The translations under genes and the position numbers were made by a program. Under the pieces are notes generated by a model, which was given only the letters and a program-made list of their open reading frames with translations, was not told the DNA's origin and ran no database searches. Shown here piece by piece: positions 5,141-17,614 of a DNA stretch of 64,000 nt. This stretch comes from Lacticaseibacillus parakribbianus (GTDB lineage Bacteria; Bacillota; Bacilli; Lactobacillales; Lactobacillaceae). The stretch is from positions 124,001 to 188,000 of the forward strand of contig NZ_JANQBA010000001.1 of NCBI RefSeq assembly GCF_025490915.1, in the 5' to 3' direction. The stretch's first letter is position 1. Each line of letters opens with the position of its first letter.

Positions 5141-5257
5141 AGATGCCTTGAACAGGCGTTCGGGTTACGACCACCGGCCACTGGCGGCAAAAAAGCTTTC
5201 ATTCCGGCGGTTGGCTGGTGTATTGTAGTGAGAGTTAGATTCAAAAAGGAGCACATC

Positions 5258-7270
<2,013 letters not shown>

Positions 7271-7272
7271 GC

Positions 7273-9720
7273 ATGGCTAACCAGATTCAAGACATGACGC
7301 TTGAAGACGTCATGGGCGAACGCTTCGGCCGCTATTCGAAGTACATCATCCAAGAACGCGCGTTGCCCGATGTGCGAGACGGCCTCAAGCCCGTGCAGCG
7401 GCGCATTCTTTACGCGATGAACCAGGATGGCAACACCTTTGACAAGGGGTTTCGCAAGTCGGCCAAGTCCGTCGGGAACGTCATGGGTAACTTTCACCCG
7501 CACGGCGACTCGTCGATTTACGAGGCGATGGTGCGGCTGTCTCAGGACTGGAAGCTGCGCGAACCGCTGATTGAGATGCACGGCAACAACGGCTCAATGG
7601 ATGGTGATCCACCGGCCGCCATGCGTTACACTGAAGCCCGGCTGTCCAAAATCGCCGGTGAGCTGCTCAAAGACATCGACAAGGGCACCGTCGACATGGT
7701 ACTGAACTTCGATGACACAACCGAGGAGCCGACGGTGCTCCCAGCGGCCTTTCCCAACCTGCTGGTCAACGGTGCGACCGGGATCTCGGCCGGCTACGCG
7801 ACGGAGATTCCGCCGCACAACCTGCGCGAGGTGATCAACGCCTTGTTGTACCTGATGAAGCACCCAGACGCCGCTCTCACTGACCTGATGAAATTCGTTC
7901 AGGGCCCGGATTTTCCCACCGGCGGCATCATCCAGGGCGTGGCCGGCATTCGCCAGGCCTATGAAACCGGCCGCGGCAAGATTGTGGTTCGGGCCCGGAC
8001 GCACATCGAGGACCTGCGCGGCGGCAAGCAGCAGATTGTCATCACCGAGCTGCCTTACGAGGTCAACAAGGCGCTGCTGGTCAAGAAAATCGACGAGCTG
8101 CGCCTCAACAAAAAGGTCGACGGCATCGCCGAGGTCCGAGACGAATCCGACCGCTTCGGGCTCTCCGTTGTGATTGAGCTGAAGAAGGAGGCCAATGCCG
8201 ACGGGATTTTGACCTACCTGTTCAAAAACACCGACCTGCAGATCAACTACTCCTTCAACATGGTCGCCATCGCCGACATGAAGCCTCGCCAGCTGGGGCT
8301 GGCACCGATGCTTGAGGCTTACCTCAAGCACCGCCGCGAGGTGATCACCCGTCGCACCCAGTTCGACCTCCAAAAGGCCCAGGCCAGACAGCACATCGTG
8401 GCCGGCTTGATCAAGATGCTCTCGATTCTGGATCAGGTGATCCACACCATTCGCCACAGCGCCGACAAGGCCGACGCCAAAAAGAACTTGGTCGCCCAGT
8501 ACGACTTTTCGGTGGCCCAGGCGGAAGCCATTGTGTCCCTGCAGCTTTACCGCCTGACCAACACGGACATCACGGCGCTTGAGGCGGAGGCCGCGGCCCT
8601 GGCCAAGTCAATCGCCGAGTACCAGGAAATCCTGGCCAACCCAACCGCCCGAGACGCCGTCATCGAACAGGAGCTCGCCGCCATCGCCAAGACTTACGGC
8701 AACGACCGCAGCTCGAGCATCGAATCGGAAATCGAAACCCTCGAGGTCGACACCACCGTGGTGGTCGCAGACGAGCGCGTGATGGTGCTGGTGTCGCGCG
8801 ACGGCTACTTGAAGCGCAGCTCGCTGCGCAGCTTCCAGGCGGTGGCCGCGGCCGACAACGGACTCAAGGCCAACGACTTTTCGCTATTCGAACAGGAAAT
8901 GAGCACCTTGGATCACCTGTACATTTTCACCAGCGCCGGCAACGTCGTCTACCGCCCGGTTCACGAAATCGCCGACCAGCGCTGGAAAGACGCCGGCGAG
9001 CACCTGAGTCAAACCGTCGGCATTGACCCCAATGAGCACGTGGTGGCCGCCTTTGGCCTCCAGAGTCTGGACACACCGGGCAACTTCGTCTTGGGCTCAA
9101 CCGACGGCTACATCAAGCAAGTGGCCCTGGCCGACCTGCAGCCGCAGCGCAACTACAAGAGCCGGCCGATGGTGGCCATGAAGCTCAAGGCCACGACCGC
9201 GACGGTGACAGATGTCTACTTCGTGGCGCCGGACAGCCAGCAGACCGTCTTTGTGGCGACCAATCGCGCCTACGGTCAGCAGTTCCCGCTGGCCGAGGTC
9301 AGCCTGATCGGGGCCCGGGCGACCGGTGTCAAGAGCATGGACCTCAAAGACGGCGACCAAGTCGTGAATTACATTTTAGCCAACGATCCCGAACAAACCG
9401 AGGTCGGCATCGTGACCCAGCGCGGCGCCTTCAAGAAGATGAAGCTCAAGGAGATGGGGTTGGGGACCCGGGCAAGGCGCGGCCTGATGATTCTGCGCGA
9501 GCTCAAGCGCGATCCGCACCGCATCGTCGCCATGCGTGAGGTGAAGCCGGACACGCTGCTACAGGTCCTGACCGCAACCGACCAAGTCTGTGAAATTCGC
9601 CCGGCCGATTATCCGGCAGGGGACCGTTACTCCAACGGTTCTTTTGTTATCGACACGGACGTTGATGGCAAGCCGGTCTATGTCCATCAAACCCAGGTAC
9701 CGACCCCACCAACGGACTGA
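7273..9720 (+). CDS. parC: DNA topoisomerase IV subunit A (ParC)
   Basis: DNA cleavage and religation subunit, 815 residues. The N-terminal winged-helix region holds RALPDVRDGLKPVQRRILYAM; the catalytic tyrosine is in AMRYTEARLS near residue 118. The quinolone-determining segment reads HPHGDSSIYEAM, the serine and glutamate of susceptible strains. The C-terminal half is the beta-pinwheel DNA-wrapping domain. The ATG at 7273 is preferred over the in-frame GTG at 7267 because of its spacing from the GAAAGGAAA site. It is co-transcribed with parE. No clear terminator follows. Confidence 0.94.
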   Translation: MANQIQDMTLEDVMGERFGRYSKYIIQERALPDVRDGLKPVQRRILYAMNQDGNTFDKGFRKSAKSVGNVMGNFHPHGDSSIYEAMVRLSQDWKLREPLIEMHGNNGSMDGDPPAAMRYTEARLSKIAGELLKDIDKGTVDMVLNFDDTTEEPTVLPAAFPNLLVNGATGISAGYATEIPPHNLREVINALLYLMKHPDAALTDLMKFVQGPDFPTGGIIQGVAGIRQAYETGRGKIVVRARTHIEDLRGGKQQIVITELPYEVNKALLVKKIDELRLNKKVDGIAEVRDESDRFGLSVVIELKKEANADGILTYLFKNTDLQINYSFNMVAIADMKPRQLGLAPMLEAYLKHRREVITRRTQFDLQKAQARQHIVAGLIKMLSILDQVIHTIRHSADKADAKKNLVAQYDFSVAQAEAIVSLQLYRLTNTDITALEAEAAALAKSIAEYQEILANPTARDAVIEQELAAIAKTYGNDRSSSIESEIETLEVDTTVVVADERVMVLVSRDGYLKRSSLRSFQAVAAADNGLKANDFSLFEQEMSTLDHLYIFTSAGNVVYRPVHEIADQRWKDAGEHLSQTVGIDPNEHVVAAFGLQSLDTPGNFVLGSTDGYIKQVALADLQPQRNYKSRPMVAMKLKATTATVTDVYFVAPDSQQTVFVATNRAYGQQFPLAEVSLIGARATGVKSMDLKDGDQVVNYILANDPEQTEVGIVTQRGAFKKMKLKEMGLGTRARRGLMILRELKRDPHRIVAMREVKPDTLLQVLTATDQVCEIRPADYPAGDRYSNGSFVIDTDVDGKPVYVHQTQVPTPPTD

Positions 9721-15320: not shown

Positions 15321-15343
15321 GCCAATAGAAGGAGAAATTGACG

Positions 15344-16429
15344 ATGGAAACCACCAAGCAGATTCAATTAATTCAGGACCTGTCCAATGCGTTCGGCCCC
15401 TCCGGCTTCGAACAGCCGGTCATTCGTCTGTACCGCGACGCCGTGGCCGATTACGGGGACACGACGATTGATGGCATGTTCAACGCAATCACCCGGCGCC
15501 ACGGCAACACCGGCAAGCGACCAGTGATTCAGCTGGATGCCCATGCCGATGAGGTCGGCCTGCTGGTTCAGGCGGTGCGGCCGAGCGGTCTCTTGAAGTT
15601 CGTCACGCTCGGGGGTTTCGTGCCGACCAACGTGCCAGCGATGAGTGTCTTGGTTCGCAACAAGCGGGGCGAGTACATCCCCGGGGTGGTGGCGACCAAG
15701 CCACCGCACTTCATGACCGCCGCAGAACGCAACGCGGTACCGCAGATTGCCGAGATGTCCGTCGACATCGGCAGCACCAGCCGCGAGGAAACCATCAACG
15801 ATTTCGGTGTTGATACCGGCTGCCCAATCGTCCCGGCGGTGGATTGCCAGTTTGACGCCGCTCACGGGATGTTTTTCGGCAAGGCATTCGATGATCGCAT
15901 CGGAACGGCGGCCATGATCGACACCCTGGCGACGCTGGATGGTGAGACCTTGAACGTGGACGTCGTCGCGGGGCTTTCAACGCAAGAGGAAGTCGGGCTG
16001 CGCGGCGCTTACGTGACGGCCCGGAAGGTTGAGGCCGACCTCGCCATTGTCTATGAAGGCGTTCCGGCGGATGACACGTTCGAGCCCGACTGGCTGAGCC
16101 AGACGCGGATGAAGGGCGGTCCGATGCTGCGCGACTTGGACACCACTTACATCGCCAATCCACAGTTCCAGCAGTTCACCGCCGACCTGGCCGACGAGCT
16201 GCACCTGCCATACACGCGGGCGGTTCGCACCGGTGGGGGACAGGATGGGGCAGCCATTGGTTACTGGAAAGGGATTCCGACCATCGTCGTCGGGATTCCG
16301 GTTCGCTACGAGCACACGGCCTTCAATTACACGGCCCTGAGTGACTTCCAGGCTGCCACCCAGCTGGTCAACGAGCTGCTTCGACGCCTGGATGCAGACA
16401 CGATTGCCAGCTTCTCATCCGTCGACTAG
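15344..16429 (+). CDS. M42 family metallopeptidase (glutamyl aminopeptidase/endoglucanase-like)
   Basis: Cytosolic zinc or cobalt aminopeptidase of the tetrahedral TET family, 361 residues. Metal ligands are visible in LDAHADEVG (H67), GKAFDDRIG, the STQEEVGLRG catalytic glutamates and the late GGGQDGAAI segment. The start at 15344 is preferred to the TTG at 15338 because AGAAGGAG is then correctly spaced. It begins only 23 bases after the ppaC terminator with no room for a usual promoter, so it may rely on read-through. Confidence 0.9.
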   Translation: METTKQIQLIQDLSNAFGPSGFEQPVIRLYRDAVADYGDTTIDGMFNAITRRHGNTGKRPVIQLDAHADEVGLLVQAVRPSGLLKFVTLGGFVPTNVPAMSVLVRNKRGEYIPGVVATKPPHFMTAAERNAVPQIAEMSVDIGSTSREETINDFGVDTGCPIVPAVDCQFDAAHGMFFGKAFDDRIGTAAMIDTLATLDGETLNVDVVAGLSTQEEVGLRGAYVTARKVEADLAIVYEGVPADDTFEPDWLSQTRMKGGPMLRDLDTTYIANPQFQQFTADLADELHLPYTRAVRTGGGQDGAAIGYWKGIPTIVVGIPVRYEHTAFNYTALSDFQAATQLVNELLRRLDADTIASFSSVD

Positions 16430-16524: not shown

Positions 16525-16581
16525 ACATCAGCAAAACACGGTCCGAATGCGATGAGCGTTCGGACCGTGTTTTGCTGATGT
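16525..16581. repeat. 23-bp perfect inverted repeat
   Basis: Arms at 16525-16547 and 16559-16581 are exact reverse complements with an 11-base loop. The arm core is AAACACGGTCCGAA. There is no T run after the right arm, so it is not a standard terminator, although it is the only hairpin downstream of the M42 peptidase gene. The end of the right arm is the beginning of the first 19-bp tandem repeat. Confidence 0.9.
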
Positions 16582-16706
16582 GAGCTTGCTGAGCTGATGT
16601 GAGCTTGCTGAGCTGATGTGAGCTTGCTGAGCTGATGTGAGCTTGCTGAGCTGATGTGAGCTTGCTGAGCTGATGTGAGCTTGCTGAGCTGATGTGAGCT
16701 TGTTGA
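16574..16706. repeat. Seven tandem copies of a 19-bp unit
   Basis: The unit GCTGATGTGAGCTTGCTGA starts at 16574, 16593, 16612, 16631, 16650, 16669 and 16688. Six copies are identical and the last has one change (TGTTGA for TGCTGA). There are no spacers. Copy number is likely to vary between strains by slippage. Confidence 0.97.
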
Positions 16707-16943: not shown

Positions 16944-16971
16944 ACTTCGCATAATATGTATTATGTTAACT
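16944..16971 (+). other. dif: dif-like XerCD recombination site
   Basis: Left arm ACTTCGCATAA, centre TATGTA, right arm TTATGTTAACT. Compared with dif sequences as I recall them, 23 of 28 bases match the Bacillus subtilis site and 22 of 28 the Escherichia coli site; the right (XerD) arm core TTATGTTAA equals the E. coli form. It lies where gene orientation flips and where coding density drops. The identification rests on memory of the reference sites and needs alignment. Confidence 0.75.
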
Positions 16972-17128
16972 AGAAAGAGAGCAAAAAAGCAGCGCCGAAT
17001 GCACACCCTCTCCCGTCGCTCTCGATCCCCTTAGTACCGAGCTGGCGCGACCCGGCTTGCACCCTGGCACATTGTTGAATCGTAACGGAACGATGCCGTT
17101 TGCGAAGTCCGCCGCCAGTTGCTGATTT

Positions 17129-17614
17129 TCACACTTGGGGCGGCCTCGCCGGGCCGCGCATTTCGATGAACTTGTAGTGGCCGCCGTTGGTCAGCTGGTC
17201 GTGCGTTCTCACAGCGACGAAGCCGGCCTTCTGGTACACTTTTTGGGCGCGAATGTTAAACGCCGCAACATCCAGCAGCACGGTCTGTGCGTTCGTGAGC
17301 GCCTGGACCGCCGTTAAAACCTGCCTCAAAAAGTCCTGACCGCCACCGTGGCCGGTCAGGTTCGGTGCCATGCCTAACCCAAGTTCGGTGACAGTTGGGT
17401 CGTCCGTTGCCGCCAGCGCAAAAAAGCCTATCAGCCGCGTGTCCGCATCGGTGACCTGGAAATACTGATCCCCACGTGCCACGGGATCAATCAACTCGGC
17501 GTAATCCTCGGCGTCGGCCGCGGCGTCGTAAAAATCGTAAGGGGCTGGGTAATGCCACTCATTGGCGATGCGCAGTGCGTTGGCCTGCGTCAGCGGGGCG
17601 ATGGTGAGGGTCAC
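17129..17614 (-). CDS. GNAT family N-acetyltransferase
   Basis: 161 residues. The acetyl-CoA loop is LTGHGGGQDFL near residue 88 and the C-terminal FNIRAQKVYQKAGF motif is shared with RimJ/RimL-type enzymes. The start is a GTG whose first bases overlap the stop of the upstream DUF2785 gene (GTGA), with AGGAGG before it, so translation is coupled. Substrate unknown. It is the first minus-strand gene after the dif-like site. Confidence 0.8.
   Translation of the reverse strand: MTLTIAPLTQANALRIANEWHYPAPYDFYDAAADAEDYAELIDPVARGDQYFQVTDADTRLIGFFALAATDDPTVTELGLGMAPNLTGHGGGQDFLRQVLTAVQALTNAQTVLLDVAAFNIRAQKVYQKAGFVAVRTHDQLTNGGHYKFIEMRGPARPPQV

Follow-up and report, generated by a model that had tools for sequence, protein, structure and literature searches.

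The 28-base element at positions 16944-16971 of the window (the whole 64,000-nucleotide stretch analysed here, C1:124001-188000) is almost certainly the chromosomal XerCD-type dif site of a Lacticaseibacillus-like bacterium. A XerCD dif at this terminus is itself ordinary and expected in a Lacticaseibacillus-like genus; the novelty lies around it, in a C-rich box close by and in the one-recombinase gene xerS, which stands next door in many relatives, not in the host genome. We rate at slightly better than even the joint reading that the dif locus of the Lactobacillaceae is a hot spot of repeated one-recombinase entry and takeover, with later losses, and that it carries a conserved FtsK-loading box on the XerD side of dif.

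A single-copy dif site at the chromosome terminus

Read directly from the window, the element is ACTTCGCATAATATGTATTATGTTAACT, which divides into an XerC-side arm ACTTCGCATAA (16944-16954, + strand), a 6-bp central region TATGTA (16955-16960, +) and an XerD-side arm TTATGTTAACT (16961-16971, +). The XerC-side arm was assigned by alignment with known dif sites. Identity to known dif sites amounts to 22 of 28 positions for E. coli, 23 for B. subtilis and 24 for S. aureus, in agreement with the 22 to 23 matching positions reported in the first-pass annotation, whose sequence was exactly as given here. The site resembles the Firmicutes XerCD/dif system (B. subtilis dif, with CodV/RipX) in its 28-bp 11-6-11 layout, its single copy at the terminus and the presence of genes for XerC, XerD and FtsK in the same genome. 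It differs in having TATGTA at its centre where TATATA is commoner, and its XerC arm contains CGCATAA, as does the E. coli dif.

Across the assembly (2,820,553 bases in 32 contigs, 99.96% complete), the 28-mer occurs once at ≤3 mismatches, and this genome search returned neither a second copy nor a better dif elsewhere; the runner-up in the 416 kb of contig C1, leaving aside the element's own complement, matches at 18 of 28 positions. Both results bear on the possibility that a Xer-using phage, plasmid or IMEX left the element behind as a remnant or used it for attachment, in which case it would not be the chromosomal dif. Xer-exploiting mobile elements carry dif-like sites, and a seven-copy, 19-base tandem repeat lies within the same intergenic gap; set against this, besides the single copy and the distant runner-up, are the LysR and DHH genes that 15 of 16 genus loci have to the left of dif and the presence of dif in 30 of 30 genus members examined, and we regard such an origin as very improbable. 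The chance of a fortuitous AT-rich near-palindrome is negligible, as nothing beyond the palindromic nature of the element speaks for it, no dif match at ≤3 mismatches turned up in dinucleotide-shuffled versions of the window, the best scores against any of four known sites were 17-19 of 28 in 5 Mb of one-strand sequence from a Markov model of the window's dinucleotides, and the site is kept across the genus although the flanks of the 30 genus sites do not align (mean of 0.085 bits per column).

The site sits in a gap between two gene blocks that face each other. On the left, the + strand block ends at 16429 with an M42 glutamyl aminopeptidase-like gene (15338-16429, +), followed by an inverted repeat with 26-bp arms (16525-16581, +) that is probably the transcription terminator of this block. 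On the right, the first gene of the − strand block encodes a GNAT acetyltransferase (17129-17614, −), is transcribed towards dif and ends at 17129. Genes adjacent to the gap keep these directions, with LysR, DHH and the M42 peptidase running rightwards and GNAT, DUF2785, HAD and others leftwards. The seven copies of the tandem repeat (16574-16706, 99% matches) start inside the 3' arm of the terminator hairpin. A search for a remnant gene in the gap found short frames only, the longest of 68 aa running through dif, and an Rfam scan of the gap returned nothing above threshold, six of its seven weaker matches falling on the hairpin with the 26-bp arms.

The first-pass annotation had proposed that the site marks the chromosome terminus, and this is borne out by its single copy, by the switch of gene strand and of GGGNAGGG polarity at dif and by its location roughly opposite dnaA in four relatives. 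Over the 416 kb of C1, divided into 20-kb bins, all seven bins to the left of dif have a + majority of coding sequence, and 11 of the 14 to the right a − majority. The motif GGGNAGGG, the E. coli KOPS, points towards dif 22 times and away from it twice in the same 416 kb. The KOPS of L. lactis, GAAGAAG, lacks polarity in the host genome (51:43), and is polar in two relatives (94:24 in G027 and 102:60 in G019). In the host assembly, dnaA lies on contig C11 and dif on C1; in near-complete members of the genus, with the position of dnaA taken as the origin, the distance from dif to dnaA is 48% (G027), 47% (G022), 45% (G005) and 52% (G019) of the contig. GC skew, suggested earlier as a check, does switch near the site, being positive in six of seven bins on the left and negative in 10 of 13 on the right. 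The two bins touching dif, however, have the wrong sign (−0.017 on the left, in a partly covered bin, and +0.023 on the right), so that GC skew resolves the position of the switch no more finely than about 20 kb.

Recombination machinery of the host genome

XerC, XerD and FtsK-gamma are all encoded in the host genome. The xerC gene that had been noted in the same window is indeed there, at its left end and about 16 kb from dif (47-787, +, from the first in-window start codon); the gene starts before the window, its frame being open from before base 1 to 787 and 304 aa long in the genome. The window's piece of XerC scores 297.3 bits against an NCBIfam cut-off of 335.15, its start being cut off by the window edge. 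Next after xerC come hslV and hslU, and further on parE (topoisomerase IV subunit B, 5228-7270, +) and parC (topoisomerase IV subunit A, 7267-9720, +). The XerD gene, 75 kb to the left, reaches 371.9 bits (cut-off 329.6). Two proteins carry an FtsK gamma domain over the cut-off, one of which, when compared with solved structures, matches the FtsK gamma domains 2j5o, 2ve8 and 2j5p via IGYNRAAR.

The XerCD/dif mechanism is established, and we infer recombination at this dif. After replication, FtsK at the septum would pump DNA to the terminus along polar G-rich motifs until it meets both copies of dif in a dimeric chromosome; its gamma domain would then activate XerD, followed by XerC, and recombination of one dif with the other by these two enzymes would resolve the dimer into separate circles.

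XerS itself (NF003462) gave no match in the host genome at E ≤ 1e-60, the best hit scoring 117 bits where the cut-off is 267, and the window contains neither the genus-type candidate XerS site described below nor a relic of it at ≤6 mismatches. The XerS/difSL of streptococci and lactococci is, like the present system, a Xer system of Lactobacillales and occurs beside dif in other members of the genus; the host differs in having no XerS match and a site that is not difSL.

Conservation of dif among relatives

With the host's own genome included, dif was recovered at ≤3 mismatches from 42 of 60 genomes and from 28 of the genus's 30 members. A looser pattern matched 14 of the 18 missed genomes, among them both missing genus members, bringing the genus to 30 of 30, and is so loose that chance may account for some of its matches, such as the additional ones in G011, G030 and G032. 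The host is not a lactococcus, and the presence of dif in all 30 genus genomes makes its presence here no surprise. In a class-wide sample, 117 of 259 genomes matched another dif pattern at ≤2 mismatches. By the same pattern, none of the 15 genomes sampled from genus g11 (family f4) had a dif, and all four of these dif-less genomes that were examined carry XerS.

Within the genus, all positions of the XerD arm but the seventh are invariant over the 30 sites, in keeping with the high conservation attributed to this arm in the first-pass annotation. In the central region, 28 of the 30 sites have A where the host site has G (TATGTA). The exceptions to the failure of the flanks to align are the bases right after the XerD arm, a few nearby columns and a C-rich box further to the right. 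Directly 3' of the arm, the genus alignment shows a conserved AGAA (16972-16975, + in the window), with A in 30, G in 25, A in 28 and A in 28 of the 30 sites. In a tree of two proteins from 16 genomes (G002 dropped), the sister of the host genome is G006, with a dif type as in Lacticaseibacillus kribbianus.

Some further flanking features were seen outside the genus. Several class members have TGAGA roughly 20-30 bases left of dif (left flanks of L133-L140 and L160), and the left flanks of family f11 (L144-L150) share a TATACTT-like stretch, often with TGAAAC. A MAG labelled Gemmatimonadetes (L097) carries a Bacilli-type dif with a TATGTA centre, possibly on a mis-binned contig.

A C-rich box on the XerD side of dif

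In the window, the C-rich box begins 35 and ends 59 bases beyond the XerD arm (17006-17030, read on the − strand) and consists of CCCTCTCCC at 17006-17014 and CCCC at 17027-17030; its G-rich complement points at dif, and we propose a KOPS-like function for it. A motif search over the genus sites gave the consensus CTCCCCCAcT with a log-likelihood of 85.5, compared with 52.9 and 51.4 for two control regions and 36-41 for three shuffles. The window's own box is a weak fit to this consensus (6.4 bits). Within 84 bases after dif, CCCC occurs in 24 of the 30 genus sites, versus 32 of 620 windows elsewhere in these loci, and its frequency among same-side intergenic windows of three chromosomes is 66 of 392.

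The box having first been seen in the genus sites, the other genera of the family provide the more independent test. There, CCCC follows dif in 18 of 48 sites (28 given and 20 hand-picked) versus 0 of 190 control windows, and the shorter CCC in 32 of 48 versus 24 of 190. Enrichment is weak beyond the family. At the level of the order, CCCC was found in 2 of 22 sites versus 1 of 87 windows, which is not significant, and CCC in 11 of 22 versus 9 of 87; for the class (70 sites, made up of 30 given loci and 40 hand-picked from the rest), the counts were 15 of 70 versus 14 of 277 for CCCC and 33 of 70 versus 70 of 277 for CCC, the latter not significant against right-hand windows.

Some words resembling the complement of the box are also strongly polar along the chromosomes. 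The word GTGGGGGA, a near complement of the box consensus that was chosen after the box had been seen, points towards dif 26 times and away from it 0 times in three genus chromosomes, and 4:0 in another genus, which makes 30:0 over four genomes with 300 bases on either side of dif left out; the corresponding ratios for GGGGGAG are 35:4 and 7:1, in sum 42:5. In the three genomes, AGTGGGGG has a weaker ratio of 10:2, and the general bias of G-runs is weaker (670:198 for GGGGG). In G366, words like its right-hand box are without polarity (5:5 for GAGGGGT and 0:1 for GAGAGGGG). Three sites of one other genus (L206-L208) have a GTGGGG box on the left side as well, which likewise points at dif.

What the box does can be read in two ways. 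According to the first, to which we give about an even chance, it is bound by a different protein of the terminus, acts as a signal in transcription of the convergent genes or helps XerD to shape the DNA, and does not load FtsK. The consensus CTCCCCCAcT is indeed neither the E. coli KOPS nor the B. subtilis SRS, the box falls in a hairpin loop in some single-sequence folds, and the right-hand box words of G366 are not polar. On the other side of the balance stand the orientation of the box, its place on the XerD side, its likeness to the polar GTGGGGGA and GGGGGAG and the mirrored left-hand box of L206-L208, which points at dif too. An RNA element was also considered; when the 102 bases that follow dif were folded for 54 sequences, visual inspection showed no common stem, which further disfavours this first reading.

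According to the second, a KOPS-like motif would load FtsK pointed straight into XerD. We hold this tentatively, at somewhat below even, because the complement of the box points at dif, because some related words are polar and because E. coli has a KOPS on the XerD side, at 124 bp from dif (PMC2680272). The putative motif resembles KOPS (E. coli) and SRS (B. subtilis) in being G-rich and directed to dif, and differs from them in its consensus and in recurring beside dif where flanks have otherwise diverged. The box offers a defined candidate FtsK-loading motif for lactobacilli. Among titles and abstracts, with subscription papers mostly outside the search, we found none on a box beside dif in lactobacilli.

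XerS genes beside dif in the Lactobacillaceae

XerS (NF003462 over the cut-off) is encoded in 56 of 201 Lactobacillaceae genomes, spread over 14 of 38 genera. The earlier assignment of XerS to lactococci and streptococci is thus too narrow. Among the 56, 43 also match the family-survey dif pattern, and five belong to the 30 genomes of the genus (G005, G010, G022, G027 and G028). For the 34 in which coordinates of dif and xerS were listed on one contig, the gap between the two measures 464-1,243 bases in 33, and 15.5 kb in G402; 33 of these 34 xerS genes run away from dif, 18 of them on its XerD side and 15 on its XerC side. One example is the xerS gene at G027:C1:1443373-1444485 (L233, L063). 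Of the remaining 22 XerS genomes, three have dif and xerS on different contigs, five have a dif whose position was not listed and 12 lack dif by the pattern; in G441 and G257, reading of the locus showed a dif at 0.7 and 1.2 kb, respectively, from the start of xerS.

The older recombinases persist in some of these genomes and were not found in others. All ten tested genomes with both xerS and dif (G027, G005, G022, G028, G415, G377, G386, G375, G398 and G257) encode an XerD over the cut-off and a second, XerC-type match. In four XerS genomes (G330, locus L324; G407, locus L316; G379; G373), searches found no dif, XerC or XerD, the XerD-family search giving no match at E ≤ 1e-45; by the family-survey pattern, dif is present in other members of g127, g135 and g139. 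Eight dif-less g6 genomes have an XerD-family match of 219-303 bits, below the XerD cut-off. In total, 19 genomes are dif-less by the family-survey pattern, with XerS in 13 and none found in six, and in view of these six the pattern may miss diverged dif sites. The six (G333, G361, G403, G422, G445 and G464) may carry a diverged dif or a different system altogether.

Upstream of many xerS genes lies a palindrome with a 6-base centre, a putative XerS target. The candidate in G391 is CATTAAAA-CTATAA-TTTTAATG, that of G407 is the same with one base off, and the CTATAA centre recurs in the streptococcus-type site CCGAAAAACTATAATTTTCTTG before f4 xerS genes. Perfect or near-perfect palindromes are found 95-215 bases before xerS in L300 (3026-3071), L328, L329, L330, L332 and L340. 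The five XerS-bearing members of the genus have the candidate TTGGATAAAG-CTAAAA-CTTTATTCAA with 0 to 3 mismatches, and in the 25 XerS-less genus genomes, some with shorter flanks, this genus-type site did not appear at ≤7 mismatches in the sequence up to 1 kb from dif. No palindromic XerS site was found in some loci, including the eight of g6.

These arrangements suggest many two-system intermediates and repeated loss of the older system. In the takeover that we propose, xerS, often with its own short palindrome in front, would settle 0.5-1.2 kb from a surviving dif. XerC and XerD would still be encoded at that stage, leaving two resolution systems side by side, and several separate lineages may then have lost dif, XerD and even XerC, ending with XerS as the sole system, the condition seen in streptococci. 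The host genome represents the state without XerS. We infer that XerS is active in the genomes that carry it, and that the order of events was gain, then loss.

An extract of Kono et al. 2011 (PMC3025954) describes L. helveticus as having XerS together with XerC and XerD, calls it a possible evolutionary intermediate and states that its XerS site was not found. A 2017 review describes XerS for streptococci and lactococci (PMC5357621), and a paper on L. crispatus genomes names XerS (PMC7955673). Titles and abstracts, in a search that left subscription papers mostly outside, included none on xerS beside dif in lactobacilli. The proposed takeover bears on how streptococci and lactococci swapped two-recombinase for one-recombinase dimer resolution. 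Genomes in which the two genes and their sites lie no more than about 1 kb apart, together with relatives in which only one of the systems was found, open this replacement to direct testing in harmless food bacteria.

The phylogeny of XerS bears on its spread. In a tree of 36 sequences, made without five of 41 that failed a frame filter (three of f4, G481 and G323) and with the split gene of G010 left out, the four g1 proteins form one clade. The g4 proteins fall inside g133, a nesting that may point to transfer of XerS between genera. In the 16-genome genus tree, the three g1 carriers of XerS group in a single clade with a support of 1.0, apart from the host genome.
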